DNA from: a virus
Strand: one strand, 5' to 3'
Length of the DNA stretch: 64,000 nucleotides
IMG/VR virus record: IMGVR_UViG_3300008262_000025
Location: 1 to 64,000 of that record
Shown here: in pieces, positions 1 through 46,109 of the stretch
How the letters are laid out: every line of letters starts with the position of its first letter
Position numbering within the stretch: the stretch's first letter is position 1
Notes under the pieces: generated by a model
The model's input: only the letters and a program-made list of their open reading frames with translations
Databases searched by the model: none
Told to the model about the DNA's origin: nothing
Program-made: the position numbers and the translations under genes

Positions 1-872
1 AAGAGGCTGATGATAAAACAGATTATGATTTTAAATATAGAGGTAATGGTCAACAACATAATAAGAACTTAGAGTTTTTAAATTCATTAGCAGATGAAGG
101 TACTGAAGAAGATGCTGATTTACAAACTGCAAAAACTGAGTTAGAAAAAGAATTAACTAAAAAAAGAGATGATTTAAAATCACAAATAAAATCAGAAACA
201 TTTAATCCTACTCCTTATGTAGAAGTAGATAAAGGTGATGGAAGTGGAAAACCAAAAATGATGCTTCTTGTACCTCAAGAAGAATTAGAAAATGCATTTA
301 AAGATTATGTAAAATCACAAATACCTTATTTAAAAGATGTAATTATTAAAGATATAAAACAAGGTATTATATCTTTTGATTTAATTTTTGAAAATGGATT
401 TACATTTGATAGAGGTGAATTTCCACTTGTAAAAGGTTCACTGGGTGGTATGATAGTTACTGATGCTAACTTATCAGAATATAAAGTAGCAATAGATTGG
501 ATTATTTCAGAAGAATATAAAGCAGAACTTGCAAAATTAGAACAAGAATCAAAAAAATCAGGTAAGTTAACTCAAACTCCAGTAGAATTTGGAGAAGAAA
601 TGTCCCCAACTGAAGGTATATGGTATAAATCTAAACCTGCATCTAATCATAATTCAATAGTTGAGTTTTATGATAACAATGAATTTTCAATAATTTTAGA
701 TGAAAAAGTTATTGGTAGAATTTTAAATATGGACCCAGGTATACTGATGTTCCCTATTATAAATGATGAAACAGGAGAAAGAATAGATAACCAAAATCCA
801 AGTGAAATTATAAGAAAAATGGTCAAGAACAAGTTAAAACTAAATCTATTGAAGAACAAAAAGCTGAGATAG
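1..872 (+). CDS. Giant virion/polyvalent protein, upstream-frame segment (5' truncated by window)
   Basis: The frame is open from base 3 to the stop at 870-872, with no start inside the window; the internal ATG at 258 is not a credible start because coding continues upstream of it. The product is lysine/glutamate rich and hydrophilic, with a KSGKLT motif encoded at 555-572 that recurs in the neighbouring giant proteins. After about 816 the translation becomes low complexity and stops, while the -1 frame opens with a smooth continuation into the next feature. I therefore read the two as one gene joined by a frameshift, either programmed or a sequence error in the A5 run at 815-819. No enzymatic domain is recognisable in this piece. 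Confidence 0.75.
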   Translation, partial: EADDKTDYDFKYRGNGQQHNKNLEFLNSLADEGTEEDADLQTAKTELEKELTKKRDDLKSQIKSETFNPTPYVEVDKGDGSGKPKMMLLVPQEELENAFKDYVKSQIPYLKDVIIKDIKQGIISFDLIFENGFTFDRGEFPLVKGSLGGMIVTDANLSEYKVAIDWIISEEYKAELAKLEQESKKSGKLTQTPVEFGEEMSPTEGIWYKSKPASNHNSIVEFYDNNEFSIILDEKVIGRILNMDPGILMFPIINDETGERIDNQNPSEIIRKMVKNKLKLNLLKNKKLR

Positions 873-3800
873 AAAGAAGAAAAAAACTATCTGGATGGAT
901 TGCATCTTATGAATTAGCAAAAATTGCAAAAGAAGAAGGTGTTGATTTATCTAAATTATCTAGAGAAGAATATGCAGAATATGCTATTAAAAACTATTTA
1001 AAAATAGATGATACTCAACTTAGAACTAATCCAAAACATAGAAATGCTACAACTGTACAAGAAGTTGGAGATATTATAAAAGCAGATAGAGCTTCTTTAA
1101 CAGAAGAAACTAAAAAAGCATTTGATTCATTTTATAGAGCAATGATGGCTATTGTTAATAAGCCTCAAGCAGAAAGATATTTAGCTCAAAGTGTAAGATT
1201 ATATTCAGGTACTAAAGATTCTGATTCTTGGTTATATTTTGGCATAAATAATGGAACAAATACTAATGAAAATTTTACACATAAAAGTTATTTTTCATTA
1301 AAAGATCTTAATGATTTTTCTCCAGAAATGTTTAAAGACTTTATGATTGAACTTCAAAAAAGAGGTTATAATGGTGATGTTAAAATATTTCAAGATTTAG
1401 AAGTTCAAGGTCCATCATTAAGTGATCAAGTTGTAATGCATGGATATTCAGAAGCAGATGCTAAACTAGCATTAGAAGTAGCTAAAGAATTTTATGGAGA
1501 TAAAATATTAGAATCATCGTATGGTAAAGATGAAATTATAAATGGTAAAAGTAAATCTTATAGTCAAATACTTTCTGATAAAATTAAAAATGAAATTGAT
1601 TCTAAAAATGTTGATGAAGAATTAGCTGCATTAGAATCTCAATCTGAAGTAGATCAAGAATATCAAGACTTTATTAATGGTATTATTACTGGTGAACGTA
1701 TTAAATCAATAGGTGAAAAACTTGCTACTAATAGAACTAACGAATTAACTGATTTTGAAAATCAGATATTAAAAGATGAAAAAGGAAAACAATTAATAGA
1801 TGAATATTTAGCAAAAAGAAAACAAGCTGAAGATAAAAAAGAAAAGAAAAGTGAATATACCGCAAAAGAGTTTATACAAAAATATTTAAATTATGAATTT
1901 AAAGATGATAGTGGTAAAACATATAAATTAGAATTCTTAGATAAGTATTTAGATTTTCTTAAATTAGCAGATGCTAATAATACTATCATTAGAGTAATTA
2001 ACGATAAAAATCAACAAGGTAAAATCTTTGCTCAAGGTAATGTTATTACTATTAATGTTTATCATTTTAATGATCAATCTCAAAAACTTATTATTGATGA
2101 TAAAATATTAAGTGAATTATTTGTACATGAAACTATACATACATTTATTGGATCAAGTTTAAAAACTAATAATGCATTCTTTAATGAGATGAAAGGTTTT
2201 GTTTTAAGTATGGGTAATTCTAATGACTTAACAGAAGCTCTTGATGGTATTGCTGATAATATTAAAGCTCAAATTAGACAAGTTAATAAATTAGAAGATA
2301 GTCCAGAAAAAGTAAAAAAACTTAATATTTTAAAACGTGCATTAGAATCTATAAACTATTCTAAAAACACTATTCTTGATAAACTAAAAGAATATGAAAA
2401 AGATAAAGTTAAAATTTCTCCTGAGGCTGCTCTTAAAAACGCAGAGGCTTTAGGTCTAGAAGAGTTTATTGTTTTAGCTTTATCTGAACCTGAGTTTGCA
2501 TTTTATTTGAATACAGTGCCATCTGATAAAGCTACAGAGGATGGTCCTAGTATGTCTATGTGGCAAGTACTTAAAAAGATATTATTTAAAATACTTGATG
2601 CTGTATTAAATAATAAAAGTAGATTAGCAGAATTAAATAATATGCTTGATAGACATTTAGCTAAAACAGCTAAAGGTTTAGATTTAATTAATATTCAAGA
2701 ATATTTTGATTTAGGATACATACTTGATAAAGGTATATATACAATTAATATTGGTACAGAGGTTAGAGATATTGTAATTCTTGATATGGAAGGTGATAAT
2801 ATTATATATACTTTTCCTAATGTATTAAGTGATCCAAGAATAAAATATACAATGTCTAAAGAAGAGTTTTATAATAGTGATCCTGTATTAAATGAAAACT
2901 TTAGATTTGAAGAATTTATAAATCAATTAAATAATTTAGAACTTACACCTGATAACTTTCAAAAAGAATTTCAAAGATTAAAAGATCAAGTATTATATGA
3001 TCATCTATCTATAGATACTAAATCTAAAATTGATGAAATACTTGATAGTATACAAGAGCAAATTGAAGCTGATATTAAAGATGATAGATTAGATAATTTT
3101 GCTGATCAAATTGAAAAGAAAAAGTTAATATCAGAAATAGAAGGTATATTAAATAACGCATCTACTGAATTTGGTATTGATAGTGATCAGTTTAAAACTT
3201 TAAGCAGAAAAGCTTTACTTAGAATTAAAGAAATATCTGATAATGTAAATGATATTCAAAATGATAATTTTATTAAACTTGCTAAGTTAACTGAGTTTAG
3301 TGATTCTTTTAAACATATCTTTACAGAATTAGAAAATATAAAAGAGGTTTTAAATAATAAAATAATTGAAACTATAAAAGATAAGTTATCAAAAGAAACT
3401 AATTTAAATATGTTACTTCGCATAAGAAATAATTATTTAAAAGGAGTAAATAAATTAAAAGATGCTTTTAATAACGAAGCTAATAGATTAAAAACACAAT
3501 TAAATGATGATGATTATGAACTTCAGTTAATTATTAATTCTACTAATTTAGATAATATTGAAGAGAGATTAGAAAGAGAATTTATATCTAGATTGTCTGA
3601 TGATGATATTAAAAATACATCTGGTGTAAGATATGCTCAAATTATTAAAGATGGTAAAGTTAATAGATACTTATATACAATAAAAGGAATTACTGAAAAT
3701 GGTTATTTATTAGAAGATGGTAATAATAAAATATTAGAATTTTCATTTGATGAAGTAATTGATTTATCTGAAAAATCAGCTTATTATCAAGGGTATTCTA

Positions 3801-6376
3801 ATAAAGAAGAAATTTTTGATGAAGATTATGCTAGATCTATCTTATTTGATTCAGTAAAAATAAATAGTAAAACTTATATTAATGATCTTCTTAATCATAC
3901 AATTTTAAAAAATTTAACTGTATTAAGATTTCCTGATAATCCATATGATATTGCTAAATCAATAGCATTAATATTAAATAATATACCTAATGATATAATT
4001 GACCTTAATAATAAAAAGAATGATGATATTAAAAAATTACTTAAAGAATTAATTATTAAAGCTGCTGAAAAAACTGAATCTGGAAATTATAAATTAAATT
4101 CAGATCAAGTAGAAAAATTAGTTAAAGAACTTTCAGATAAGTTAATAAGAGATCCTCGTTTTGATAGAGAACTAAAACCTATTAGTGGTTCAAAATTATT
4201 TAGTTCATTCCTTAATAGTTTAAGTGAAGAACAAAGACAAAAGACTAACTTAGGAGGTAACATTAGAATTTCTGTTAATGTTTCAACTAGAGCTAATAAG
4301 CTTAAGGATAAAATGAAAAGTACATCTAAAGATAACATAGATGAAAAACTTAGACTAGGTTTAATTAAAGCTAATACTACTAAAAAAGAAGCATTTGAAA
4401 ATAATGAAGAAGTAATTGGTATTCATATGTGGGAGGACATCTCAGTTGATTATGAAATTAATGTAGCTAGAGAAGGTGCAAAACCAAACTGGGTTAGAAT
4501 AGGTAGTGCTAGAAATCCTTATGCTTATAAAGCAATTAAAAGAGGTATAGGTGGACTTAATTCAACTGAAGTAGTTAGGAGTCCAGCTCATATATATTTA
4601 GAATATAGTAAAGAAACTAATCAAGATGAAAAGAATAAACTTGTTGATGAGTTTAATAATTTATATTCTGTAAACAATCAACCTGTAGATAATGCTACAT
4701 TTGAAGCAATTGGTAAATCATGGTTAAAACAAAAGAAATTATATGATGCGTTAAGTAAAAAGTTTAAAGAACAAGGTGATAAAGGTTTTACTATTGAAGG
4801 TGAAGAGTTAAGTAACATAATGTCATTCTCATTTACTGGTGGTAATTTTGATTTTGTTAAAAGACCTGATTCAAGAAAAACATTAAATCAAATAGCTAAA
4901 GAAGATAATAATAATGTAGAGTTATTTAAAATAGAAACTGAAGATGGTGTAAGAGAATTTGCTGTTGTTGATTTAGGTGATACTAAAAAATCAGAAAAAA
5001 GTAGAAGAGATATTTATAATACTGTAGATGGTAAATCTATAGAAGGCGTTAGCCGTTATGACTATTTAGATATTAATCAAAAACAAAATTATGGTAGATA
5101 TTGGTTAGTAATGAAAGATGTTACTGGTCAACTTAGATTCTTATGGTTAAAACCTAGAAAAGCTAAAACTACTGATTTAAATAAATTTACTGATTCTATT
5201 AATAAAAGAGTTAATGAGTATAATGAAGGTAAAATAAACAAGAGTCAATTAGAAAACTTTGTTAGAGATGAATACAGAAAAAGTATTTATTTAGCATTAC
5301 CTGCTTTACCAGAACTTAATTCCATTAATACATTCTTAAATATTGAATTTAATAAAGATGGTAAAACTTTAAAAAAAGATAAAAATGGAGCATATGTATT
5401 TAATTTAAAAATAGATCCTCAAACTCCTAACTTAAGTCCAACTCCAAAAATGTTTGTTAATAATTTAAATTTAACAGATGGTTCATCATTTATAAGTAGT
5501 TTATTTACAAATAGTAAAATAGCGTTAAAGAATATTAATACTAATTTTATGGCTATTACTGAAGATAATATACGAATATCATTTGATCAATTTGAAGATA
5601 TGGATAAATCAAAGATTCAAGATTTTATAATGGATATATTTGAGATACCTGTTAATTCTAATATTTATAGTACTAATAGATTATTAACTAATATTTCTGA
5701 TGATATTACTTTAGAACAAGAACAAGAAGAAGAATTAGAATTTGAACAAGAGGAAGAAGATGATTTATTATCTAATTTAACTGAACAGGAAAAAGAACTC
5801 TATTATAATTTAATGCAAATTGATCCTTATGCAGCTAATATAATTAATGCAACTAAAGAAGATAATTTTATAACTAATGCTGGTAATATAACACCAGATA
5901 ACGTTAGTAAAAAATTAGGAATAAGTAAAGATCAAGCTAAAAGAAGTTTACAATTATTAGTAGATTCTGGATACTTAATTAAGAGTGGTAAGTATTACAA
6001 GTTAAATGAAAACTTTGGAATAGAAGAAGAATTTGAAGCTAAAGAAGATATAATTCCTGAAGAAGATTTAAGTTTAAACGAAATTAGAGAAAAACTTTTA
6101 AATTTAGAATCTGATAAATTTTTAGGTAGATCAGTTAGAGGTAAAATTAATGAACAAGAATATAAAGATTTAACTAGTAAACTTGCTAGTAATACTCAAG
6201 ATTCTGATTTACGTAATCAAGTTGTAGACTTATTACTTCAATATTATCAAGAAGGTAAGTATACAGAAATAATTGATAAATTATTAGATGATACTAAATT
6301 AGGTAAACTAACTAAAACTATAGAAGAGGATCCAGATTTAATACGTAAGAAATTAAAAGGTTGTCCTAAAGGTTAA
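806..6376 (+). CDS. Giant virion/polyvalent protein, downstream-frame segment with zincin motif and winged helix
   Basis: This frame is open from the TGA at 803 to the stop at 6376 (about 1856 codons). The first ATG pair at 1142/1145 is internal to clear coding sequence (about 112 codons lie upstream of it), so it is probably not the true start. The frame most likely continues the preceding segment by a -1 shift near 812-820. Visible parts are: a zincin metalloprotease motif HETIH at 2126-2140, preceded by a beta-strand-rich stretch; long charged, helical and coiled-coil stretches; an acidic E/Q-rich run near 5720-5765; a winged-helix-like segment at about 5890-6000 (a Kx3LGI...A..SLQLLVDSGYL pattern); and a KLGKLT motif at 6296-6313 close to the C-terminus. 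Giant zincin-bearing proteins are typical of crAss-like phages. A function in transcription or ejection is inferred from the neighbours. Confidence 0.8.
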   Translation, partial: NYKKNGQEQVKTKSIEEQKAEIERRKKLSGWIASYELAKIAKEEGVDLSKLSREEYAEYAIKNYLKIDDTQLRTNPKHRNATTVQEVGDIIKADRASLTEETKKAFDSFYRAMMAIVNKPQAERYLAQSVRLYSGTKDSDSWLYFGINNGTNTNENFTHKSYFSLKDLNDFSPEMFKDFMIELQKRGYNGDVKIFQDLEVQGPSLSDQVVMHGYSEADAKLALEVAKEFYGDKILESSYGKDEIINGKSKSYSQILSDKIKNEIDSKNVDEELAALESQSEVDQEYQDFINGIITGERIKSIGEKLATNRTNELTDFENQILKDEKGKQLIDEYLAKRKQAEDKKEKKSEYTAKEFIQKYLNYEFKDDSGKTYKLEFLDKYLDFLKLADANNTIIRVINDKNQQGKIFAQGNVITINVYHFNDQSQKLIIDDKILSELFVHETIHTFIGSSLKTNNAFFNEMKGFVLSMGNSNDLTEALDGIADNIKAQIRQVNKLEDSPEKVKKLNILKRALESINYSKNTILDKLKEYEKDKVKISPEAALKNAEALGLEEFIVLALSEPEFAFYLNTVPSDKATEDGPSMSMWQVLKKILFKILDAVLNNKSRLAELNNMLDRHLAKTAKGLDLINIQEYFDLGYILDKGIYTINIGTEVRDIVILDMEGDNIIYTFPNVLSDPRIKYTMSKEEFYNSDPVLNENFRFEEFINQLNNLELTPDNFQKEFQRLKDQVLYDHLSIDTKSKIDEILDSIQEQIEADIKDDRLDNFADQIEKKKLISEIEGILNNASTEFGIDSDQFKTLSRKALLRIKEISDNVNDIQNDNFIKLAKLTEFSDSFKHIFTELENIKEVLNNKIIETIKDKLSKETNLNMLLRIRNNYLKGVNKLKDAFNNEANRLKTQLNDDDYELQLIINSTNLDNIEERLEREFISRLSDDDIKNTSGVRYAQIIKDGKVNRYLYTIKGITENGYLLEDGNNKILEFSFDEVIDLSEKSAYYQGYSNKEEIFDEDYARSILFDSVKINSKTYINDLLNHTILKNLTVLRFPDNPYDIAKSIALILNNIPNDIIDLNNKKNDDIKKLLKELIIKAAEKTESGNYKLNSDQVEKLVKELSDKLIRDPRFDRELKPISGSKLFSSFLNSLSEEQRQKTNLGGNIRISVNVSTRANKLKDKMKSTSKDNIDEKLRLGLIKANTTKKEAFENNEEVIGIHMWEDISVDYEINVAREGAKPNWVRIGSARNPYAYKAIKRGIGGLNSTEVVRSPAHIYLEYSKETNQDEKNKLVDEFNNLYSVNNQPVDNATFEAIGKSWLKQKKLYDALSKKFKEQGDKGFTIEGEELSNIMSFSFTGGNFDFVKRPDSRKTLNQIAKEDNNNVELFKIETEDGVREFAVVDLGDTKKSEKSRRDIYNTVDGKSIEGVSRYDYLDINQKQNYGRYWLVMKDVTGQLRFLWLKPRKAKTTDLNKFTDSINKRVNEYNEGKINKSQLENFVRDEYRKSIYLALPALPELNSINTFLNIEFNKDGKTLKKDKNGAYVFNLKIDPQTPNLSPTPKMFVNNLNLTDGSSFISSLFTNSKIALKNINTNFMAITEDNIRISFDQFEDMDKSKIQDFIMDIFEIPVNSNIYSTNRLLTNISDDITLEQEQEEELEFEQEEEDDLLSNLTEQEKELYYNLMQIDPYAANIINATKEDNFITNAGNITPDNVSKKLGISKDQAKRSLQLLVDSGYLIKSGKYYKLNENFGIEEEFEAKEDIIPEEDLSLNEIREKLLNLESDKFLGRSVRGKINEQEYKDLTSKLASNTQDSDLRNQVVDLLLQYYQEGKYTEIIDKLLDDTKLGKLTKTIEEDPDLIRKKLKGCPKG
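810..824 (+). other. Probable -1 frameshift site joining two frames of a giant gene
   Basis: Upstream codons run ata-aga-aaa-atg; slipping back one base within the A run gives aag-aaa-aat-ggt, which enters the long downstream frame. The downstream frame has stops at 788 and 803, so the switch must occur between 803 and about 860. A weak slippery string (A-AGA-AAA) is present, but I do not see a strong pseudoknot. A one-base deletion or insertion in the A5 tract, or a true mutation, would look identical. Confidence 0.5.
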
Positions 6377-6387
6377 TAAATAAAAAA

Positions 6388-6413
6388 GGGTAGATTTTTA
6401 GTCTACCCTTTTT
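6388..6413. terminator. Bidirectional terminator between convergent giant genes
   Basis: The stem GGGTAGA (6388-6394) pairs with TCTACCC (6402-6408) around a 7-base loop. It is flanked by A6 on the left and T5 on the right, so each strand sees a hairpin followed by a U run. It lies in the 57-base gap between the plus-strand giant gene and the minus-strand giant gene. Confidence 0.9.
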
Positions 6414-6433
6414 CTTTTTATAAAACCTAACTA

Positions 6434-9400
6434 TTAAAACGTTCTATTTAAATTCTTTGTCATTTCATCTAAGTTAGTTGCACTAGTAATATTACCAAAT
6501 AGTTTTAAACCTTTAGCATATAATTTGCTATCACCTTTTTTAAATATACCTTGCTCTTTTTCATATACTGCAAAAGGATCAGCAACTTGTGATAGAAAAC
6601 TATAAGCTCTATCTACAGTACCATTAAATGCAGTTGGACTTTTAAAAAGCTTCCAGTTATCACCAAAGAAACTAGGTACAGGAGCTAATGAACCAATTTC
6701 TTTTCTAAGTCTAGTAAGTTCATATAAAGCTAAAGCTCTAAATGCTGATACATCTTCATCATCTTCATCATCACCTATAGCTAATACAGCAACTAATAAT
6801 CCTAATAATAAATAAATACCTAATTCCATAGTTGCTCTTCTAACGTTAGCTTCTTCAAATGGTTGTAAACCTGTATCTTGTTTAGTACCACGGAAACTAT
6901 TCATAAACATTGTACTTAATTTTTTCCAATCAGTAAATAAGTAACTAAAAAATGTTATATAATAACCTTGTCTAATAACACCTACTTCTTCATTTCTATA
7001 AAGTTTACCCCATCTTCTTCTAGCCATAGGTACTAAGAACTTTCTATACATCATAAGTAATCTACCAAATACATTTCTTTGTATGTGAGTTTTATCAAAT
7101 GTAGCATAGTTACCTTGAAGATCTTTATTAATACCATGAAGTTTAGCTCTAATCTGCATATTCTTTTTACTTCTTAAAAAAGGAACACCATCTATATCTT
7201 TTATACCTTTTGCTATAACTTTACCATCAGCATCAAGTTCCATAGATGTTAATAAAGTATCTTTAATTTTATTAAATTCTACTTTTGCTTTTTTCTTTTC
7301 ATCATAAGTAAGTTCAGATCCTTTATCATTAGTTTTCTTTTGCATGTAATCTTCTATGCTATATACTTCACCATTAATAACTTTATAACTATTAAGTAAA
7401 GCATACATTGATGTAGCAGCAGCTTCAATTTCACCTATGTTATTATTAATAAACCAAGTACTTGATCTTAATGCTAAATTAAGTTTTGATGCAGTTAAAT
7501 CATTACCATATTCATCTTGGAATGTACCTTGTAAAGCATCATACATATCAAACAATTGACCTGATAAAGTTTCTCTTGATATCTTACCAAAATCTTTTAC
7601 CATATCCATAGTAAGTGATCCTATCTTATTACTACCATAATATACTAATTTTTTAGCATAACCCCAATCTTTAAGATTATAATGATCAGCGGCCCAACCT
7701 TCTAAGAATATTTGTGTATTAGCTTGTAAGTAGTTAGCAAAACCTTTAATCCAACCAGTAGATGTAATACCACCTATTTGAGCATACGATGCTGCAGTCA
7801 TAAGACCATCTAATAACTTATCTACTCTTACAGGCCCTACTACAGGAATGTTATAATTGATTTCATTATTCTGATCATCAAAGAATTGCATTTCAGTAAA
7901 TGATCTAAGTAATGCACCTTCATAAGTTTCACCTTCTTTGCGTACAAACTTTTCTATACCTAGTTTTTTAGCAACAGCATCGATCATTTTATTACCTTGT
8001 GCATCTCTTTCTATAGCACCACCTTCAGTTGATTTATCTCTTTTATTAATTAAATTTAAGATAGCTCTCATTTGAGGTAATATTTCACTCTTAGCTTTAA
8101 ATCTTTCTGCTTGTTGTATATAAGATAATATAGAGCTTACAACGTCTCTACTGACATTTTCTATATCAATGTGATATACATGTCTAAACGGAAGAGATCT
8201 ATTCTCTAATGATGTACTATAAGTTGCAGTACCTTCAATTAGTTGATCTTCATCTAAATCTATATCTTCACCAGATGTAGATAAATGTCTCATTATATTA
8301 TCATTTTCTATTTCTCTAGTAGCTTTATTTCCAAATTTAGTTTGCCACCAAGATCCAACTCTTTGTTTAAATTTACCTTCTATTAATTCTTCTCTACCAC
8401 TCTTATAAATATACGGTAATCTGTTACCTAATCTGTAAGCAGCAGGCATTTCTGCTTGTGCTTCTTTGTACTTTTTCATAATAACATTATAAAACTCTTT
8501 CCATTTAGGATCAAGTTGTTCATATTTAGAGTTTACCCATAAATGTTTTTTAGGTAACATATATCCTAATTGATCTGTGACTTTATCAAGATCAGTTCTA
8601 ATATATTCTTCTTTTATCTCTGGTGATTTATATAAATAATTAGGAAGTAATTTTACACCTTCAGTTAAAGTTTCATCAATTAATAAATATCCTGATTCTT
8701 TTTTTATTTCTTTATCTTCTTTGTGATTTTTTAAAAACCATTCTGTTTTTTCTAATTCAGCATTAAGAGCTTTATCGTTATAATTAGGATAGATTTGTTT
8801 AATCTTTTCTAATTCATTTTTTCTATCTATTTTGTAACGTTCAGAAATTTTATTAGTTTTATAAGTAGGTACTGTAGTCATCCATGCTCTAATAGGACTA
8901 TAAATAATTTCACCTTCTTTAGTATATTCAACATGATTATTTATATACCATTCAGATTCTTCAAAAAGTATACCATTACTTTCAGCCTTAGCTTGTTCTA
9001 ATTCATATCTTTTATAATATTCTGAATTAGGAACATATTCAACTATTTGATCAATAGCTTCATCAATACCATTTTTTATTTGAAAGAATAAATTCCAAGA
9101 TGGATCTTCTTGTCTTTGTTCACGTGTTACTTTATTAAGTAAGAATAGTTCATTTAATTCTTCTTCTAATTCTTTTAATCGAGCAATTACATCATTAGGT
9201 ATAACTTTAGTATCAACGTGAGTACCACCAAGTCTATATGGTTTTAATAAATCATTTATTTCTTCATTAATTTCATACTCATCATTTTTAGTATTATTTA
9301 ATTCATATTCTTCAAACCATGAATCTATTTTATTAGTAAATGTTTTAAAATTAATTACCTCATCACTTAATAACTTAATTTCATCCATTAAATCATAATC

Positions 9401-12400
9401 ATCATTATTCTTTGCATACTTAAGAACTTTTTTAAGTTTTCTTAAATATTTAACTTTATCAAATAATGAGTCATCTATTTTAACTTCAGTATTTTCTTCT
9501 AACCATAATAAATATTTATCTGGTTCTGTTTCAAATTTAAGTTTAGCTCTTCTTCTTTCATCTTCAAATCTTTCATAATTAACAACAAAACGATGTCTCT
9601 TATTATATTCTGTATTAAATTCTTGAATTCTAATTGCAATTTTTAAATCGTCACCTTCTTTTTTAATACCATCTTTATCATATATAGAACCTAATAATTT
9701 ATATTCAATATCTAATTCTCTTAAAGCTGCTAAGTCATCATCACTAAGTTCAATAGATCTATGCTTAACTCTATCTTTAATATTATCCATCATACTAATA
9801 ATTTCATCACGTCTCTTCTTAGCTTCTATACCAATTTCATCTTTAGTAAATAAATCATCCATTTTATAATAATCATCAATATTAGGACGTTCCATATTTT
9901 TATTTACCCAAGCTTTGTATTCTTTGTCAACTTTTCTAAATTCATCAAACTTTCCAGCTTCTTTAAGTTTTCTCATTCTATATTGATAATGCTTAATGAT
10001 ATTAGTATAAGTCATTTCGTCTTCAACAGTTTTTCCATCATCATTTACATAAGTAAATTTCTTTCTACCATATTCACTTACAAGATTTACTGTTTCAGCT
10101 AATATTAATTTACCTGTAACTGGATCTCTTACCCATTCTTTTACAGTTTCAAGTATAGGATCATAAAACTTTTGAGGGTTATCACCTTGATTAGGTAAAA
10201 AGTTAAACGCACTTTGATCAAATACAGCAGATGATAATTTCTTTGCTGCTTGTTGTATTTCAAGTGCAATATCTTTCATATTCCATTCTGCTTCAGTAAG
10301 ATGGAATTTTAACATCATAGCATAAGAAGATAATATACCACTACTAGTACTAATAGGAGCAGTAAGAAATCTTTCAATAAAACCAATATCTCTATTAAGT
10401 TGTTTAAAATCTCTAACTAATGTACCAGCATCTCTAACTAATGTATCTTTAAACCTCTCCATGTTCTTTTTATACCTATCTTTGTAATACTTTAATTGAG
10501 TTTTAAATTTATCATTACTAGGATTTTCTTTAATCTTTTTTTCTAAGTCTTTTATTTTCTGCTCATATTGAATTTGCTTACCTTTAATAAAATCATCTAC
10601 AGATTTATTTAAATTTTCATTTAAATACATCTCAAGATTATTACCAAGTAATCTTTCCATTTCATATTGATAACGTACATCAAGAAGTTTTTTCTTAATT
10701 TCTATAGCTGTCTCTAACTCTTTAAATGAATCCATTTTCTTAATTTCATTTAAATCTTTATCAGATGTTCCTTCTAATAAAGCATTCATTATTTCATCAA
10801 GAATATTATAATTCTCAGCTATTCTTCTTATATCTTCTATATCTCTAATAGCTTCACTAGATCCTATGTCTCCTTGATTATAACTATTAATAACTAATTC
10901 AAACTTATCATTAAGCCCTAACATATTTTCAGTACCATATAATTCAAGATAAGATGCATGTATAAAAGTATTTAAACTTCGTATTTTATCTAAATCTGAT
11001 ATGTCAGTTTTAAGTTTATTAATTTCAGTTTTTTGTTTATCTTGTTTTTTAGGATCTTTGTCTATAGATCTATTAATATCAGTTAATCTTTTTTCTAAAT
11101 AAATTTTAATATCATCAATTAATTTATTTATTCTTTGTTGTTTATTATCTAATAAAAGATCTACGTTAGCAAAATCTTCTTTTTCTTTTTTAACTTTTTC
11201 ATCACCAAACTTTGGATTATACTTAGATCTCATTCTTTCAAATGCTATTCTTTTAGCTTTATTATATACAAGAGCACCTTGATTACCAAATGGAGTATTA
11301 TAAAATGTTTTAATATTAATGCTGTAAGTCTTTTTAATTTTACCGTTTTCATCTAATGATGCTTCTATAGTTATTTTACCAGATGGTTGTTCATTTATTT
11401 TATAATCATTTACTTCTGATATTTCAAAGTGACCATCAATATATACTTCATTAACAATCTCACCTTTATCATTTTCATAACTATTTAAACCTACTTCAGG
11501 TACAGTAATAGGAATTAAGAATAAATCTTTAACTTCAAATCCTAATTCTTCTTCAAGTATTCTTTGATATAACATTAACTGTAAAGAATAACCTGCTTGT
11601 TTTTTTGAATTTAAACCAAATGTAAAATCTCTAACTATTTCATAATAAGGAGCTGCAGGTTTAGGTTCATAATGCATAGTTTTAAAGTCATAAATTTCTA
11701 CTTTACCTCTATATTCAGGGTCTACTGATTCATCATCTTCATAAATAACTAACATGTCTATTTGACCTGCTACGCTTACTTGTCTACTACCATCATTTAT
11801 ATCTAACATTTTATCAGTATGAACAAGTACTTCAGTAAGTATTCTACCTCCTCTTTCTTCAATCTGATTTTTCATTGAAACTATCTTATTATAAAAGTCT
11901 AAACTAGCATATAATCTATCAAGTTTCTTTTGATCTTCAGATAAAACAATAGCATCTTGTTTTTTTACTTTAGGTCTATCATTAAATCTAGGTAATAAAT
12001 TATCTTTACCAATTTTAGTTTCTAAATTGTTAATATCTTTTTCTAATTTTTTAATATCATTATTAACATCTATTGGATCTTTCTTTAATATCTTTTCAAT
12101 AAGTGAATGTACTTCAGTTCCTACTTCTCTTCTTACTTCTGAATTATATAAAACTTTAGTTAACTTATAAAATAATTCTTTATCAAAAGGTTCTTCTTGA
12201 ACAAGATTACCAAAAGCATCTTGAAAAGTAAAATTATCTGTTTCATTTTCTTCTCTATAAAAATTAAATCTATTATTTAATACAGCTGTAATAAAATCTT
12301 TTTTAGCAAGTTCAGTTAATGAATCAAACCAATCTTTACTTCTTTTATTACTTTGTATAATATATTTTATTAAATTCTCATCATCAAAATCTAAAAGATT

Positions 12401-15400
12401 ATGTTGTCTAACTATACCAGTAATTGAATGATCAAAATTTAAACCATTCTCTTTAATGTAATCATGTTTTCTTTGTGTAAGTTCAGCATGAATTGTTTTA
12501 CCATCAGGAGAACTATCAAACTTTACTTTAGATGCTCTATTCAATACTTTCTTTTCCATCTCTCCTGCTTCTTTTGTAACCTTACCAAACTTAATAACAT
12601 TTTCATTATTAAAATCTGTTGCTGTACTTAATATATCAAGAGATCTCTTATCAGCATTAGCAAGTGCTTGAGATACAATAGGATCTAAAAATAATAATAG
12701 ATTTTTATTCTTTACATTTTGAATTTGATTTAAATGTTCAAATGCAATATTTTCATAATCTATAGAATCTAATTTAGTTTTACTTTTTATAAATTTATAG
12801 TTATCAATAATATCTTTATTACCATAATTCTCCATCATAGTACCTAGCATATTATTGTTTCTAAGCAACCCTGAAGCTAATGTAATTAAAGGTACTACTT
12901 TAGTATCACCTGTAATCATAGATGGATTGTAGCTTAAAATACCGTTATTTAAAGACCATTCTTTATTAAGATTATAATCTTTTTTAAATTGAACTTTACT
13001 TTTAGATGATATATCATTCATAACATTTAAAGCAAATTCAATAGGTGAGTTATTTAACTTAATAGGTTTATTTATTAAAGGTATTTTTACTACATCAGGA
13101 TTAAGTACATGTGTTTCTGTATCAGACATAACTACATCATAACCAGCAGCTTTAGCTTTAGATATCTCAACAGGATTGACTTTATCAACCTTTTTAACTT
13201 TATTAGTTGCAATAAAGAATGGTTCAGTATTACCAGATACTTCATCTTTAAATACTAATGATTCCCTTGGTAGTTCATCTTCTTCATCATCAATAAAATC
13301 TCTAACTTTTTGAATGCTAAAATTATCTTCAGTTTTTAATAATTCTTTAAGATCAGTTTTAGTAACTTCAGGTAGATTTGATTCATTTACTCTCTTAGTT
13401 AAATCTTCTACAGATTCTGTTTGAGTAAGTTTACCTTTCTTAACATCTTCTGCTAATATAGCTTTAACTAAATTTAAATTATTAACTATACCGTTATTTG
13501 CAAATTCTAATATTCCTGTTTTAAGTAAGTCAAATAAATTATTAATTACTTCAGGATCTTCATCATAGTTTTGTAAATTAGTTAATAGAACTTTAGAATC
13601 TTCAAGATTTTCTATTGTACGTTCCACATTTGAAATATAATCATAAGCTTGTTCTAATATTTGAATTTTATCATAACCATCATTATAAGTATCTTTAATA
13701 ATTTTAATATTTTCTTCTGCTTCTTTTAATGTTATTTTATCATTATTTATTTCTTTATCTATATGAGTATTTAATTCTTCTATAGATATATTTTCAAAAT
13801 CATTTAAATAATATAAAGATTGATCTACTAATCCACTAATACCATTATCAAATTCATTAGGTGTTAATTTACCAAACTTAATAGTACTTAAATCTCTTTC
13901 AGGTGTAATTTCTACTTCATTCCATGTATTACCATGCTCATCTGTAATTACTACAGGATTATATCCTTGTTTTTTAAGGATATTAGTTACAGTATTCTCA
14001 TAGAAATTTATAGTACCTTGTATTTGTTTTTCTGTATTATCATAATGAGATTTATCTTTTTTTAATCTATATAAATCTTGTTGTCTTGCTTTATCAAAAG
14101 TTTCATCATTCTCAATTGCATCGTTAGGATAAAATGATTCAAGTACTCTCTGATAATCAACATAACCTTCTTGATCATTACCAATATATTGAGCTTGACC
14201 ACTAACGTCTTTTATAAAATCTGTTACTTTTAAATCAATTAAAAACTTTTCAACTTTATTAAACTCATTCATTTTATAGAAAATTTCTTTAAATTGCTCT
14301 ATAACAATTATAGTTTCACCAGTAGGAAATAAAACTTTTTTATATCCTTTCTTAGCACTATCTTGAAGTATAGATTTTAAAAAGAATGTAACCCAATTAT
14401 TGTTTTTGTTTAATAATTGAAGAAAGTTATTTTGAGAATCTTTCTTATAGTTATATAAAGTATCTTTTGGTATGATTACTAAAAAGTCATCATCCCAATC
14501 AGGTTGTTGATAATAATTAGTATCATCTTCATATAAAACACCATGATTGTGTTCAAAAGGTCTATCTTTAACGTAAGTTATATATTCTAATGCTAAACTT
14601 TCATCAAATAAAGGATCATCTATTTTAACAGTTTCTTTATAATCATTTAAATCTATTACAAATTTTCCATTAGAATTTATCTTATTGTTTGTAACAATAA
14701 TTTCTTTATCTTTAACTTTTTGAAAAAAAGACTGAAGTTCTAAAATACGACGAACTTGTTTATTAGAATCTTTATCATCATTACGAAACCAACCAATCAT
14801 GTCACCTCTTGATCTATTAAATTCATTATCATGATATTCTCCATCTTGAGAAATAACATTATTAATACTTGGTGTTCTAAATGTATTAATTTTATAATCA
14901 ATTCCACCAGGTGCTGTTAAATTAGAATAATCCTTTGTAATTTGTTGTTCATTATTTTCTTCAAATATATTTCTAGCATTAGTAAACTCTTGAGAATTAA
15001 TTGGTATAAGTTTACCAGTATTATTTTGCCAATCTTCAAATGATATTTTATAAAAGCCTTTATTAAAACTTATATTATGTATATACATGTAATCATTTAA
15101 TTTAAATGTAACATTACCAGATTTTATTGGCGATGCTGTACTACTAGTATTAACCTCTACAGTATACGTATATCTATTAACTAACTCCATTGCAATATTT
15201 TCTTGCAATGATAATTCATCAACATAATTATTAAACTCTAAATCTAATATTAACTTTTTCTGTTCTTTAGGAATCTGTAACTCAGTTAATATTTTATCTA
15301 AAGTCCAATTATTCTTTTCACCTTTTTTAAATACTTCATTAGCTTTATCTGATAACAATATATCAGTAGCTTTTAAAGAGTAAGCTACTTCAGGTGTATT

Positions 15401-18379
15401 TAAAGACTCAGAAGTTAACTTACCAAACTTTTGAGGTTGATCTTCTACAAAGTTTTTAAATCCTTTTATATCTTGTTCGGAACCTAATATATGAATTTGT
15501 TCTGGTTCAAATACTACAATTTGATTTTCCCCTACATCATAAGTTCTATTATTAGATTGCTTACCTCCTTTTAATAATAAACCATCTGCGTTTTCTTTTA
15601 AACTTGTAGAATTTTCATAGTTATCAAACCAATCTTTTACTGTTAGATTTTTTGGATTTTTTATATTAATAACTGCATGTTGAACTACGCCTTTGTTATT
15701 TTCAATATTCTTTTTTATTTTTTCTGCTTCTCTTTCAATTTGTTCGTCAGAAGCACCCATATCTTTATAATAAGCTATTTCTTTTTTTATCTGCTCTATT
15801 GAAGGATTTAAACCGTGTTTTTTTATAACATTTCTTATATTACCATCATCAAATTCATCTTCTGTATATTTAACGGTATAGATATTAGCAGCATTTTTAT
15901 CATCTGTAAAAAATATACCTAACTCTTTACTTTTTTGATTAGTTTGAATACCTGTATTACCTCTATAAACAATACCTTTAACTTTACTATCAGGAAATAT
16001 AGTATCAAGATATTGAGAGTATTGTTGTTGAGCTTCTTGTTTATTACTATCAAATGATGATTTTTTAGTATCAAAATTTTCTAAATTATTTAAAGTGTCA
16101 TTGATAACATCTTCAAGTAAAGTATTCTTTGCTTCAATTCCTATAAGATTTCTTATTAAATTTAAAATGTCATCCCATAATGTTTTACCTTTAGATTTAT
16201 CAGATGGAATATCTTTTAAAATATCTCTAAATAAAGGTTCTGTAAAAACAGCAGCTAAAAATTCATCATTATCAGAAGTTTCATAACTCCAATCAAAAGA
16301 ATATATTTTATTATTAAATTCTTTAGATTTTTCTATTTTTTTAATAACTTTTTCTCTATAAGAATTAATTAAATTATAAAAATTTTTATCTCCAAATTCA
16401 CTTTTTGCTAATGTATTTCTTGTTAAAGCATGAATTGATTCATGTAATAAAGTTCTTGTTTTTTCATTAAAATTTTGATTAGGAGAAACAATTATTCTAT
16501 TAAAATATTCATTATACGTACCAATAACACCTGATTTTATTTCTTTATAATATACTTTAGTTGGATAATTTTTTAATTTATTTTTAATTAAATTAGCAAG
16601 TTCTTTATATTTATAATAAAATTCACTTGATTCATTTTTTTCTAATTCTTCATTAGACATTTGTAAAATTTTATCAAGCTCATCATTTAATAATGTATAT
16701 TTATCATCTTTTGTAATTTTAATATCTTCTTCAATATTTAAAATTTTATACACAGTATTAGCTAACTCAAGATTAGATTCAAATAGTTCTGGTACACCTT
16801 CTTTTATTTGAGTTAATTTACCTTTCTTAATATCTTCTTCATTAAAAGGTATAAATCTATTATAATCCCAAATATCTTTAAATCTACTATATCTTAATTT
16901 AGCTTCAAATGGAGCTTCAAATTTAGATAAACTAACATTATATTTATTACCATCACTACCAACAAAAGGATATTTTATAATACCTCTTTCAGATTCATCA
17001 TTACTAAAGAAGTCAACTAACATTGCTTCTTCACCTTCTTTATCTTCGTCTTCATTTATAGTTTTACCAGTATCAGATATATCAAATTTTAATTTATAAC
17101 TACCTTTTTTTTCATTAGTTTCATTATCAACAACAGTATAACCTATAATCTTACCTGTTTCTCTTCTTTCAATATTAGTAATTCTAAATCCTGCAGGTGG
17201 AATTAAATAAGTATCTACTTGATATTTATCAAAAAATGAATATGCTTTTATAGAATCAGGATAATAATATTTAACTAAATCATCTATTTCTGCTTGTGAA
17301 TAACCACCATTAACAAAATCTAAATCATGAACAACAGTTTCTATTTTTCTATATACTGTACCTTGTGTAGAGTATGCTATTGATCCTGTTAATGTAATGT
17401 TAGGTATAGTACCTATCTTAGTCATTATATCTTTAGCAATAGAATTTTCATCAAATGCTGTTTGAAAATCTACTTGTTTATATCCATCTTTTTTAGTTAA
17501 TCTAATAAAGTCATTACCTTTAAATGTATTTTCTACTATAGTATTTATTTGAGTTTTAATCTTACTATAGTCTGCACCTTTTAAAGAGTTAATAAGATTA
17601 TTAATAAACTCTTTAATTCTATCAAGTAAAGACTTTGATACATTTAATTCTTCAGCTAATTTCTCTGAAAAACCACTTTCTAATAATTCTTTAAATATTT
17701 CTTTTGTAGCAAGTCTATTTAAATTTCTTTTAGTAGAATCTCCATATTCTTCTTCTAGTTCTTTTACTCTTTTTTTAAATCTATCCGTTTTTCTTACTTC
17801 TCTTTCTATATCATAGAAGTAATCAGAATAACTTAACATTTCTGATAATGGTTCTGCCATTGCTTTAGATACTTGTTCTACACTTGATGTATCTAAACTT
17901 ATACTTTTAGCTGCAAGATTTATTATTAAATTTTCAGATTCGTTTACTTCAAATCCAAACGATTGTAAAAAGTTTAATAACTTAGCTTGAGGTTCATTTT
18001 CATCTAAAGTTAATTTACCAAACTTTTTATTATTATCAATTGACCTTTTAATTTTATCATCATTAATAAAACTATCTAATGCAGTTTTAAATGGTTTAAC
18101 ACTATTAGCATCTTGTAGATACATTAACTTAGGTTCAAAATTGTTATCTACAAAAGGAGATACTTTAGAATAAGATGCTCGTGCAGCATTATATTCAAAT
18201 GAATCTTTAGTATAAAGTTTTAATTCTTTAGATGCACTTTCCCAGTTTCCAAATTCATTTGAAAATTCAGGAGTTCTTACTTTATACCATATTTCTTTTG
18301 CTTTTCGTTCTCCATATAAAGATTTAAGTTCTTCATATAAATTACTTGTTTGCCCGTTAGGAGCATAAAAACATGCCAT
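6434..18379 (-). CDS. Giant polyvalent protein (3981 aa): candidate NTase, zincin, ART-like and RecB-like nuclease domains, C-terminal TM
   Basis: The domains are read from motifs. A nucleotidyltransferase-like module lies at about residues 328-355 (TGS...HDLDF, matching the hG[GS]..DhDh pattern). A zincin HESIH is at about 645-652. An ART-like fold starts near 800 (VYRG ... FFTDDKNAANIY). A RecB/PD-(D/E)XK nuclease spans about 2090-2290 (GTEVHSLIE, GQIDMLV, YDFKT, QLMLYQRIL). Then come more than 1000 residues of charged coiled coil, and a hydrophobic helix at about 3846-3866 followed by DDEDDED. Six copies of K-x-G-K-[LV]-T occur at residues 119, 518, 984, 1501, 1647 and 1930, roughly at domain boundaries. 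The architecture matches the 'polyvalent proteins' of phages described by Aravind and colleagues and the giant virion proteins of crAss-like phages. Packaging, ejection and processing are inferred. Start: ATG at 18377-18379 after an A-rich leader. Confidence 0.85.
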   Translation of the reverse strand: MACFYAPNGQTSNLYEELKSLYGERKAKEIWYKVRTPEFSNEFGNWESASKELKLYTKDSFEYNAARASYSKVSPFVDNNFEPKLMYLQDANSVKPFKTALDSFINDDKIKRSIDNNKKFGKLTLDENEPQAKLLNFLQSFGFEVNESENLIINLAAKSISLDTSSVEQVSKAMAEPLSEMLSYSDYFYDIEREVRKTDRFKKRVKELEEEYGDSTKRNLNRLATKEIFKELLESGFSEKLAEELNVSKSLLDRIKEFINNLINSLKGADYSKIKTQINTIVENTFKGNDFIRLTKKDGYKQVDFQTAFDENSIAKDIMTKIGTIPNITLTGSIAYSTQGTVYRKIETVVHDLDFVNGGYSQAEIDDLVKYYYPDSIKAYSFFDKYQVDTYLIPPAGFRITNIERRETGKIIGYTVVDNETNEKKGSYKLKFDISDTGKTINEDEDKEGEEAMLVDFFSNDESERGIIKYPFVGSDGNKYNVSLSKFEAPFEAKLRYSRFKDIWDYNRFIPFNEEDIKKGKLTQIKEGVPELFESNLELANTVYKILNIEEDIKITKDDKYTLLNDELDKILQMSNEELEKNESSEFYYKYKELANLIKNKLKNYPTKVYYKEIKSGVIGTYNEYFNRIIVSPNQNFNEKTRTLLHESIHALTRNTLAKSEFGDKNFYNLINSYREKVIKKIEKSKEFNNKIYSFDWSYETSDNDEFLAAVFTEPLFRDILKDIPSDKSKGKTLWDDILNLIRNLIGIEAKNTLLEDVINDTLNNLENFDTKKSSFDSNKQEAQQQYSQYLDTIFPDSKVKGIVYRGNTGIQTNQKSKELGIFFTDDKNAANIYTVKYTEDEFDDGNIRNVIKKHGLNPSIEQIKKEIAYYKDMGASDEQIEREAEKIKKNIENNKGVVQHAVINIKNPKNLTVKDWFDNYENSTSLKENADGLLLKGGKQSNNRTYDVGENQIVVFEPEQIHILGSEQDIKGFKNFVEDQPQKFGKLTSESLNTPEVAYSLKATDILLSDKANEVFKKGEKNNWTLDKILTELQIPKEQKKLILDLEFNNYVDELSLQENIAMELVNRYTYTVEVNTSSTASPIKSGNVTFKLNDYMYIHNISFNKGFYKISFEDWQNNTGKLIPINSQEFTNARNIFEENNEQQITKDYSNLTAPGGIDYKINTFRTPSINNVISQDGEYHDNEFNRSRGDMIGWFRNDDKDSNKQVRRILELQSFFQKVKDKEIIVTNNKINSNGKFVIDLNDYKETVKIDDPLFDESLALEYITYVKDRPFEHNHGVLYEDDTNYYQQPDWDDDFLVIIPKDTLYNYKKDSQNNFLQLLNKNNNWVTFFLKSILQDSAKKGYKKVLFPTGETIIVIEQFKEIFYKMNEFNKVEKFLIDLKVTDFIKDVSGQAQYIGNDQEGYVDYQRVLESFYPNDAIENDETFDKARQQDLYRLKKDKSHYDNTEKQIQGTINFYENTVTNILKKQGYNPVVITDEHGNTWNEVEITPERDLSTIKFGKLTPNEFDNGISGLVDQSLYYLNDFENISIEELNTHIDKEINNDKITLKEAEENIKIIKDTYNDGYDKIQILEQAYDYISNVERTIENLEDSKVLLTNLQNYDEDPEVINNLFDLLKTGILEFANNGIVNNLNLVKAILAEDVKKGKLTQTESVEDLTKRVNESNLPEVTKTDLKELLKTEDNFSIQKVRDFIDDEEDELPRESLVFKDEVSGNTEPFFIATNKVKKVDKVNPVEISKAKAAGYDVVMSDTETHVLNPDVVKIPLINKPIKLNNSPIEFALNVMNDISSKSKVQFKKDYNLNKEWSLNNGILSYNPSMITGDTKVVPLITLASGLLRNNNMLGTMMENYGNKDIIDNYKFIKSKTKLDSIDYENIAFEHLNQIQNVKNKNLLLFLDPIVSQALANADKRSLDILSTATDFNNENVIKFGKVTKEAGEMEKKVLNRASKVKFDSSPDGKTIHAELTQRKHDYIKENGLNFDHSITGIVRQHNLLDFDDENLIKYIIQSNKRSKDWFDSLTELAKKDFITAVLNNRFNFYREENETDNFTFQDAFGNLVQEEPFDKELFYKLTKVLYNSEVRREVGTEVHSLIEKILKKDPIDVNNDIKKLEKDINNLETKIGKDNLLPRFNDRPKVKKQDAIVLSEDQKKLDRLYASLDFYNKIVSMKNQIEERGGRILTEVLVHTDKMLDINDGSRQVSVAGQIDMLVIYEDDESVDPEYRGKVEIYDFKTMHYEPKPAAPYYEIVRDFTFGLNSKKQAGYSLQLMLYQRILEEELGFEVKDLFLIPITVPEVGLNSYENDKGEIVNEVYIDGHFEISEVNDYKINEQPSGKITIEASLDENGKIKKTYSINIKTFYNTPFGNQGALVYNKAKRIAFERMRSKYNPKFGDEKVKKEKEDFANVDLLLDNKQQRINKLIDDIKIYLEKRLTDINRSIDKDPKKQDKQKTEINKLKTDISDLDKIRSLNTFIHASYLELYGTENMLGLNDKFELVINSYNQGDIGSSEAIRDIEDIRRIAENYNILDEIMNALLEGTSDKDLNEIKKMDSFKELETAIEIKKKLLDVRYQYEMERLLGNNLEMYLNENLNKSVDDFIKGKQIQYEQKIKDLEKKIKENPSNDKFKTQLKYYKDRYKKNMERFKDTLVRDAGTLVRDFKQLNRDIGFIERFLTAPISTSSGILSSYAMMLKFHLTEAEWNMKDIALEIQQAAKKLSSAVFDQSAFNFLPNQGDNPQKFYDPILETVKEWVRDPVTGKLILAETVNLVSEYGRKKFTYVNDDGKTVEDEMTYTNIIKHYQYRMRKLKEAGKFDEFRKVDKEYKAWVNKNMERPNIDDYYKMDDLFTKDEIGIEAKKRRDEIISMMDNIKDRVKHRSIELSDDDLAALRELDIEYKLLGSIYDKDGIKKEGDDLKIAIRIQEFNTEYNKRHRFVVNYERFEDERRRAKLKFETEPDKYLLWLEENTEVKIDDSLFDKVKYLRKLKKVLKYAKNNDDYDLMDEIKLLSDEVINFKTFTNKIDSWFEEYELNNTKNDEYEINEEINDLLKPYRLGGTHVDTKVIPNDVIARLKELEEELNELFLLNKVTREQRQEDPSWNLFFQIKNGIDEAIDQIVEYVPNSEYYKRYELEQAKAESNGILFEESEWYINNHVEYTKEGEIIYSPIRAWMTTVPTYKTNKISERYKIDRKNELEKIKQIYPNYNDKALNAELEKTEWFLKNHKEDKEIKKESGYLLIDETLTEGVKLLPNYLYKSPEIKEEYIRTDLDKVTDQLGYMLPKKHLWVNSKYEQLDPKWKEFYNVIMKKYKEAQAEMPAAYRLGNRLPYIYKSGREELIEGKFKQRVGSWWQTKFGNKATREIENDNIMRHLSTSGEDIDLDEDQLIEGTATYSTSLENRSLPFRHVYHIDIENVSRDVVSSILSYIQQAERFKAKSEILPQMRAILNLINKRDKSTEGGAIERDAQGNKMIDAVAKKLGIEKFVRKEGETYEGALLRSFTEMQFFDDQNNEINYNIPVVGPVRVDKLLDGLMTAASYAQIGGITSTGWIKGFANYLQANTQIFLEGWAADHYNLKDWGYAKKLVYYGSNKIGSLTMDMVKDFGKISRETLSGQLFDMYDALQGTFQDEYGNDLTASKLNLALRSSTWFINNNIGEIEAAATSMYALLNSYKVINGEVYSIEDYMQKKTNDKGSELTYDEKKKAKVEFNKIKDTLLTSMELDADGKVIAKGIKDIDGVPFLRSKKNMQIRAKLHGINKDLQGNYATFDKTHIQRNVFGRLLMMYRKFLVPMARRRWGKLYRNEEVGVIRQGYYITFFSYLFTDWKKLSTMFMNSFRGTKQDTGLQPFEEANVRRATMELGIYLLLGLLVAVLAIGDDEDDEDVSAFRALALYELTRLRKEIGSLAPVPSFFGDNWKLFKSPTAFNGTVDRAYSFLSQVADPFAVYEKEQGIFKKGDSKLYAKGLKLFGNITSATNLDEMTKNLNRTF

Positions 18380-44193: not shown

Positions 44194-45145
44194 CTAAAAA
44201 AGAGTTAATTGGTTATTATTAGATATTACATTAATAATCTTATAAGCTTCTCTAACATAATAGTTATAGTTGATGTCATAACAACTAAACTCTTCGCAAT
44301 TATAATACCTGTTAAAAATAGTAGTATTAAAGTCTTTCTCGACATTAGATTCTCTACTGTCGTTATGTACTTTCATTAACGTACCACCTTTATTTGTAAT
44401 TAAATATCTGTTATTCTTTTGTAGTTTTGTTTCTACAAATTCTCTGTCTTCAATCTTACGATGAATAGCTGTCCAACCTTTAGTAACTTTCATTGATAAT
44501 GTAAAGTCATAAATGTCTGTAGAGTTCATTATTGTTTCTTCAATTGGTATATTATGAACATAATAAGCTTCTAAAGCTTTAGGTACTATTTTCATAGAAT
44601 GATCTTTATGCCAATCTTTATTTATCTCAAAGTCACCTTTAAGTTTTGTTTTATCATTTTCATAAACTCCAATATAATTATTAACATCACGTATAATCAT
44701 TTTTTTATAATTAACGTATTCAAGTTCAAGACCAGAAAGTGTTTCCCAATCTTTACATATACTCATAAGTTTATCATAATGACTTTTATGAATCTTAACA
44801 GTAAGACCGTCAGTATTGATCTGTAACAAAGTAGAATCAGTATTTAATATTATTTCTTCAGCTAACATAGTTAATAGCAATTGGCCATTAACAGTAGTAG
44901 CTACAGTGTATGCTGGATCATAAAAGAATGATGTTTCTTCATTGGATTTACCATAAGAACCATTCAAAGCTAATTTTAATCCTTCATTAACAGCTTTAGC
45001 TGTCATGTCGTTTTTATCTATTTTAACTTTCTTTTTTGCAATAGATCTTTTATCATATACACCTTCGTATATATCACAAAACTTTTCACCTAAATGTAAA
45101 GGATAAAATCTATTACGTATTGCTAAATTAGGATAAAAACTACTA
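44194..45145 (-). CDS. Family B DNA polymerase, exon 2 (palm motifs A-C)
   Basis: This is the 3' exon of the polymerase whose first exon is 46110-47137; the join gives a 659-aa enzyme (1980 bases including stop, a multiple of three). Exon 2 contributes the rest of motif A (spliced D342-V-S-S-F-Y-P), motif B KLALNGSYG (400-408) and motif C NTDG (453-456, the DTD equivalent). The first in-frame ATG (45006) lies 46 codons inside clear coding sequence and is not a start. Coding sequence before it includes FYPNLAI and RFYPLHLGEKF, typical polymerase residues. It is followed after 1 base by the lipoprotein gene. Confidence 0.92.
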
Positions 45146-45177
45146 CATTTGTTTCTGACATTTCTATCAGGTTCGGA

Positions 45178-45855: not shown

Positions 45856-45869
45856 AACTAATTATTTAA

Positions 45870-45886
45870 TTGCTTACAATAAGCAA
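45870..45886 (-). promoter_or_regulatory. Hairpin just upstream of the intron endonuclease start
   Basis: A perfect 7-bp stem TTGCTTA / TAAGCAA with a 3-base loop ends 14 bases before the ATG. Directly upstream on the minus strand is TATATTTG (45884-45891), a match to TAnnTTTG. In T4 introns, hairpins and private promoters restrict endonuclease expression; a similar role here is inferred. Confidence 0.5.
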
Positions 45887-46109
45887 ATATAATAAATAGT
45901 TATTTTTAGTTACCTCCTATTATCCAATAAAAGAATTTCCTTGCGCTTCGAATATCCCCTCGATATCCTACTCTACTCCTTTCCGTTTAGCAACGTAGTT
46001 TCGATAGTCTCTGCACGTTCCTTATTTTAACATAAAGCTTCGCTCAGGATTGCCATATTTTATAAACTTAGGTTTCCCTGAATTCACAAGGTTAAGACGC
46101 TAGTAGTTA

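Follow-up and report, generated by a model that had tools for sequence, protein, structure and literature searches.

A strict repeated peptide and terminal cysteines in the predicted giant cargo proteins of a divergent crAss-like phage

What is the role of a six-residue peptide that recurs, in one exact pattern, through the giant proteins of a phage? This question is raised by the IMG/VR virus record IMGVR_UViG_3300008262_000025, of which positions 1 to 64,000 (64,000 nucleotides of one strand, hereafter the window) were analysed, and in which a preliminary description had noticed the motif K-x-G-K-[LV]-T. The motif is encoded by three (A, B and C) of four neighbouring open reading frames (ORFs), A to D, which on the grounds of homology and gene order we assign to a divergent crAss-like phage (Table 1). 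Judged from the pattern of its copies, it is a short linear peptide that is selected, phage-specific and located at junctions of separately acquired polyvalent modules. We favour proteolytic processing as its function, holding this reading at about even confidence. Additionally, we describe a rule for the position of cysteines at the ends of these giants and their counterparts, which extends more widely than the motif, has stronger support as a pattern and is the more surprising of the two.

An exact peptide in three neighbouring genes

When the complete record of 89,557 bp was scanned with a degenerate DNA pattern for K-x-G-K-[LV]-T, it matched exactly eight times, twice on the plus and six times on the minus strand, and the reversed control pattern gave no match. 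All eight copies of the preliminary description were thereby recovered at their positions, with the variants KSGKLT, KLGKLT, KFGKLT (three times), KKGKLT (twice) and KFGKVT. They had been attributed to two giant proteins; the copies are real but belong to three ORFs, as the plus-strand pair is split over A and B. The spacing of the copies in C, earlier given as about 150-515 residues, is 146-517 residues.

When every gapped pattern of 4 residues in A to D was ranked without bias and compared with 200 local-composition block shuffles, K.G.LT and K.GK.T came out on top with a score of 20.4, above the maximum of every shuffle (15.5). The six copies in C compare with a mean of 0.016 in shuffled C. 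Near-copies matching four of the five positions numbered four against about 2.5 expected, which is chance level, and the motif is thus all-or-none, either exact or absent. Its flanks are acidic and polar, with 28% D/E downstream versus 17% overall. It was also confirmed that neither the RNA polymerase giant D nor any other window protein contains the motif.

The copies might be put down to the chance or composition effects expected of proteins rich in lysine, or to a relationship with the DLTGQKFGKLTVIE motif found repeatedly in phage ORFs unrelated to these, which we take to be AP2/HNH proteins. KFGKLT is indeed often present in such unrelated ORFs, in the form D[LI]TGQKFGKLT, and a scan of all viral contigs for KFGKLT returned mostly this form. 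However, D[LI]TGQ directly precedes none of the eight copies, in contrast to many of the viral matches, and the enrichment lies above all shuffles; we regard this explanation as already refuted and give it practically no credence.

The DNA around the copies is unrelated. Similarity was 0.38 upstream and 0.35 downstream, compared with a background mean of 0.35 and a 95% point of 0.38. The copies differ from one another by synonymous changes in their Lys, Leu and Thr codons and keep the same residues, indicating that the peptide and not the DNA is under selection. The first Lys is encoded by AAG in all six copies of C, where AAG makes up 17% of Lys codons (about 39% before TTT), and this mild bias hints at copying of the motif within C. 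A function or duplication at the DNA level was rejected, as the flanks are at background and the AAG bias is only mild.

Module borders and the function of the motif

Of the relatives found, IMG/VR 3300033049_000013 (G001, L146) is the nearest; its alignment with C covers residues 1-62 and 2160-3979 (30%) and leaves out the part between them. All six copies of C are inside this unalignable part, which also holds the zincin motif, the ART-PolyVal-like domain and other modules. Homology to the ART region, starting at about residue 780, ends at 983 in L323 (73%), L322 (82%), L164 and L161, directly before the motif at 984-989; these records are not independent, since L322 and L323 are near-identical there, and likewise L161 and L164. 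The gp49-like giant of another phage, L220, shares residues 1003-1507 of C, a module bounded by copy 984 on one side and copy 1501 on the other, and a module start reading ELFESNPELA (L170, L224) is found a few residues past the copy at 518-523. Homology to other phages thus stops 0-14 residues from three copies, and the breakpoints beside the copies at 518, 984 and 1501 mean that three of the six copies in C mark borders defined independently of the motif. The earlier statement that the copies sit between recognisable domains holds for these three; those at 119, 1647 and 1930 lack such support.

Near-alike ART modules (73-82%) were observed in the polymerase giants of crAss-like phages that differ widely from one another (L322, L323, L220, L212), L322 and L323 being contigs of metagenome-assembled genomes (MAGs) titled Bacteroidia and Nitrososphaeraceae. 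By its distribution, this likeness across distant crAss-like phages is a sign of rapid module swapping between cargo proteins.

Mass spectrometry has identified the proteins of crAss001 that correspond to these ORFs (gp46, gp47, gp49 and gp50) as cargo of the virion (PMC10172136). Gene order and homology to this set place the motif in predicted ejected cargo and, by analogy, this gut phage probably injects its giant proteins into bacteria. We propose that a phage protease, for which the zincins embedded in B, C or D are the best candidates, would cut at K-x-G-K-[LV]-T, before packaging or after ejection, and would set free modules of C such as its zincin, its ART region and its nuclease region. 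D, which as a polymerase would have to stay whole, has no site, and the copies towards the C-terminal end of B and the N-terminal end of C would release it from its neighbours.

We infer the cut, the responsible protease and its timing from three lines of evidence. First, zincins occur in polyvalent proteins and are predicted to process them, and some head-packaged ones, P1 DdrB and DarA, are cleaved (PMC5512222). Second, three giants carry HExxH. Third, D, which would have to work as one polymerase, lacks the motif. The preliminary description had ascribed zincin motifs to both motif-bearing proteins; HExxH is present in B and C, but it is not confined to them, as D has one too. Cutting by zincins was predicted earlier, with no named site in the work found, and the motif now offers eight exact candidate sites.

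Several observations weigh against processing. The virion RNA polymerase of N4 is packaged uncut despite its zincin domain (PMC5512222). The copies at 119, 1647 and 1930 are without an independent breakpoint, the copy in B lies 25 residues from the C-terminus and so separates no domain, and equivalent junctions in other phages show no repeated peptide. The structure models are too poor to judge accessibility of the motif: AlphaFold2 models made without an alignment had pLDDT (predicted local distance difference test) values of 35 and 32 and were not used for fold searches. Finally, conservation in relatives, which the preliminary description had chosen as the test of its proposal, was not found. 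Nine named crAss-like phages hold 0-1 copies each with no array. In a set of 50 crAss-like records there were 0-2 matches apiece, which add up to 27 compared with 14 for the reversed control. As the array is not in relatives, any such site would be peculiar to the lineage of this phage.

No close relative emerged when viral contigs were scanned with the single sequence of C or of its C-terminal part, and tblastn of C residues 1-2063 and of B against annotated phages gave nothing at E<=0.01. G001 alone shares B and the framework of C, and it has no motif; the one near-identical strain contig ends at window position 18039, short of the first copy in C. As an analogous repeat we considered PIxEQQ of crAss002 (4 copies), which was dropped as only one copy persists in the relative cr107_1. 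Cys-rich C-x-P-x-I-x-GC-x-D-x-T repeats were observed in large ORFs near polymerase genes of several crAss-like phages (G041, G043, G040, G047, G032); as an analog of the motif they were set aside, being different in kind.

An exact, polar, acidic-flanked and phage-specific junction peptide fits a protease site or a docking site. As docking peptides, the copies would each be bound by one phage factor (portal, core, scaffold or cargo chaperone) that holds and feeds the long cargo in register at packaging and ejection. The strict conservation at the peptide level over three neighbouring cargo ORFs agrees with such a role, a crAss001 cargo protein binds the portal via a defined segment (PMC10172136), and the copy near the C-terminus of B suits a tag better than a domain-releasing cut. 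However, D, the largest cargo protein, is without a copy, tags need not sit at module borders and yet three copies do, and no candidate receptor was found. We consider docking possible but not probable.

The position of copies at module borders would also be expected of scars of modular assembly, in which short repeated DNA served as recombination joints at module insertion and has not yet decayed. The use of AAG for the first Lys throughout C and the differing module content among phages are in line with scars. Unrelated flanks, synonymous codon changes with fixed residues and the lack of an excess of near-copies are the opposite of a decaying scar, and no known insertion coincides with either the A or the B copy, which makes this explanation unlikely. 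Even less probable in our view is a flexible hinge without a partner, which would let modules unfold one by one during passage through the tail. The cargo must partly unfold on ejection (PMC10172136), and the surroundings of the motif appear coil-like besides being polar and acidic, the poor single-sequence models placing five of the six copies of C in coil, which agrees with a processing site as well. Flexibility does not need five fixed residues, however, and the same junctions elsewhere do without a repeated peptide.

The proposal that the motif is a processing site can be set beside known systems. C joins several unrelated enzyme domains within one polypeptide and is thereby polyvalent, resembling the proteins of Iyer et al. 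2017 (PMC5512222) as huge chains that mix zincin, ART-PolyVal and PD-(D/E)XK and are encoded beside a virion RNA polymerase. In the portion of that article available to us no short peptide repeated at borders is described, whereas here one strict motif occurs in three neighbouring cargo ORFs. P1 DdrB and DarA, as cited there, are likewise head-packaged antirestriction polypeptides that are cut, with an embedded zincin proposed as the DdrB protease; unlike the giants of this phage, they have no repeated site in that text and are outside any RNA polymerase cargo set. The N4 virion RNA polymerase is a giant ejected polymerase with an HExxH domain and a narrow tail to pass (PMC12633501, PMC5512222), but it is a single chain, and the portions of these sources available to us mention neither a repeated junction motif nor an end-cysteine set. 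In gene order, polarity switch, DFDxD polymerase motif and terminal cysteines the set resembles crAss001 gp46, gp47, gp50 and gp49 (PMC10172136). crAss001 differs in having neither the motif nor the long N-terminal half of C, and PMC10172136 mentions neither cleavage nor cysteines of its cargo proteins.

Cysteines at the ends of the cargo giants

Together B, D and C comprise 10,298 residues with only four cysteines, all of them at ends that would abut. The fragment of ORF A has no cysteine, and the other window proteins tested contain 1.22%. The same arrangement was found in phi14:2, in which gp078 (1797 aa) has a cysteine as its last residue, gp077 (2180 aa; the polymerase of structure 6VR4) at residues 3 and 2179, and gp076 (1421 aa) at residue 3, with none elsewhere.

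We then scored joints between ORFs in the order gp47-gp50-gp49, a joint being taken to obey the rule when a Cys was present in the last 10 residues upstream and in the first 8 downstream. In 36 crAss-like phages, representing 24 polymerase clusters at 40% identity, cysteines were found on both sides at 42 of 42 ORF joints, with the start moved to an internal ATG just ahead of the Cys in 5 of the 42, and with contigs left out of the count if the standard code interrupts their polymerase ORF. No cysteine was present elsewhere in 59 of the 78 cargo proteins of these phages, and overall cysteine was 0.073% in the cargo set compared with 0.70% in 99 control ORFs. Free C-termini never carried a Cys, and free N-termini did so in G036 and G045 only, where the upstream partner lies outside the segment. 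In G038 the whole set is fused into one ORF of 5642 aa, with zero cysteines. MAG contigs from a separate collection obeyed the rule at 17 of 17 scorable joints (16 non-identical). The records bearing on the rule beyond the window are L288 (phi14:2), L135, L232-L287 and L290-L324.

The rule is weakened by C-terminal cysteines being common in the controls (22/99), largely in Cys-tailed ORFs ending in ..CSSCEG or ..AGGACEI. Joints in L293, L311, L316 and L318 are misfits or unassignable, and the polymerases of Intestiviridae and some others have a few more cysteines.

From these positions we infer, leaning slightly towards its being correct, that B, D and C and their crAss-like counterparts are coupled end to end by disulfides between the terminal cysteines. 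The C-terminal Cys of one giant would bind the N-terminal Cys of the next, forming a train of about 10,300 residues here, which would be threaded through the tail in fixed order and then reduced in the host cytoplasm. In this phage the train might also be split into its modules at K-x-G-K-[LV]-T. Should B, D and C indeed form one such train, cutting at the last motif of B and the first of C would detach D even without reduction, a speculation that fits their positions. A disulfide is the simplest reading because crAss001 virions hold disulfides, in gp57 and tail proteins, the cargo ends being unresolved there (PMC10172136). The terminal cysteines may instead serve metal binding or another thiol role. 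No mention of end-Cys coupling was found in those crAss-phage papers that were searched for it, the phi14:2 polymerase paper not being among them. The rule bears on the problem of how more than one giant protein can be moved by a phage through its narrow tail in the correct order.

The cargo genes and other observations

Table 1. Positions in the window of the giant ORFs, their domains, the motif copies and the terminal cysteine codons. Pfam scores for the domains of C fall below the curated cut-offs.
Feature	Positions	Strand	Remarks
ORF A	3..872	+	Open at 5' end; 3' part of gene at crAss001 gp46 position; role by gene order only
ORF B	1142..6376	+	1744 aa; crAss001 gp47 position; zincin HETIH at 2126-2140; homolog in G001
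ORF C	6434..18379	-	3981 aa (about 460 kDa); short N-terminal domain followed by long modular region; homology to crAss001 gp49 in C-terminal part
ORF D	18460..32181	-	4573 aa; virion-type RNA polymerase; DFDID at 25078-25104; HEAFH at 30946-30960; motif-free
KSGKLT in A	555..572	+	Residue 185 of 289-aa open fragment
KLGKLT in B	6296..6313	+	Residues 1719-1724 of 1744; 17 residues before terminal Cys
KFGKLT in C	18008..18025	-	Residue 119
KKGKLT in C	16811..16828	-	Residue 518; few residues ahead of ELFESN module start of other phages
KFGKLT in C	15413..15430	-	Residue 984; immediately past end of ART-PolyVal homology (983)
KFGKLT in C	13862..13879	-	Residue 1501; end of L220-shared module; IKFGKLTP in C versus VLFQKDTP in L220
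KKGKLT in C	13424..13441	-	Residue 1647
KFGKVT in C	12575..12592	-	Residue 1930
HESIH zincin motif of C	16430..16444	-	Residues 646-650; weak DUF6782 metallopeptidase match, E=0.004
ART-PolyVal-like region of C	15431..16042	-	Residues 780-983; PF18760, E=0.012; strong BLAST to other crAss-like giants
L220-shared module of C	13877..15373	-	Residues 1003-1501
PD-(D/E)XK nuclease-like region of C	11546..12142	-	PF12705 (PDDEXK_1), E=2.7e-4
Cys of B	6362..6364	+	Only Cys codon; residue 1741 of 1744 (fourth from end)
Cys 3 of D	32173..32175	-	One of two Cys in D
Cys 4572 of D	18466..18468	-	Last but one of 4573; no Cys in D other than 3 and 4572
Cys of C	18371..18373	-	Only Cys codon; residue 3 of 3981

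D and C face B and A, as gp50 and gp49 face gp47 and gp46 in crAss001, and likewise in cr128_1 (beta-type layout). The C-terminal third of C shows about 23% identity to crAss001 gp49 and relatives. D contains GEDFDIDSKY, and the G-DFD-D and R-PTE-K columns are invariant over nine phages. A retropepsin-like protease, as annotated in crAss001 and Dulem virus 41, gave no Pfam match among the ten window proteins tested. No major capsid protein, portal, TerL or tail stabilisation protein was recognised by eye in the record; as the record moreover starts inside gene A, the 89,557-bp sequence (G000) is probably incomplete.

By eye, D appears to contain an inserted Rossmann-like domain at about residues 2060-2200 (TGIDTLGLLLAKEIGG...), which is lacking there in the corresponding protein D' of G001; the latter has a somewhat similar stretch near its own C-terminus. 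Further along the window, at 44194-47137, one DNA polymerase PHROG is matched by two ORFs (44194-45006 and 46100-47137), with an ORF of 225 aa (45178-45855) between them. This split possibly reflects an intron, an intein or a homing insertion.
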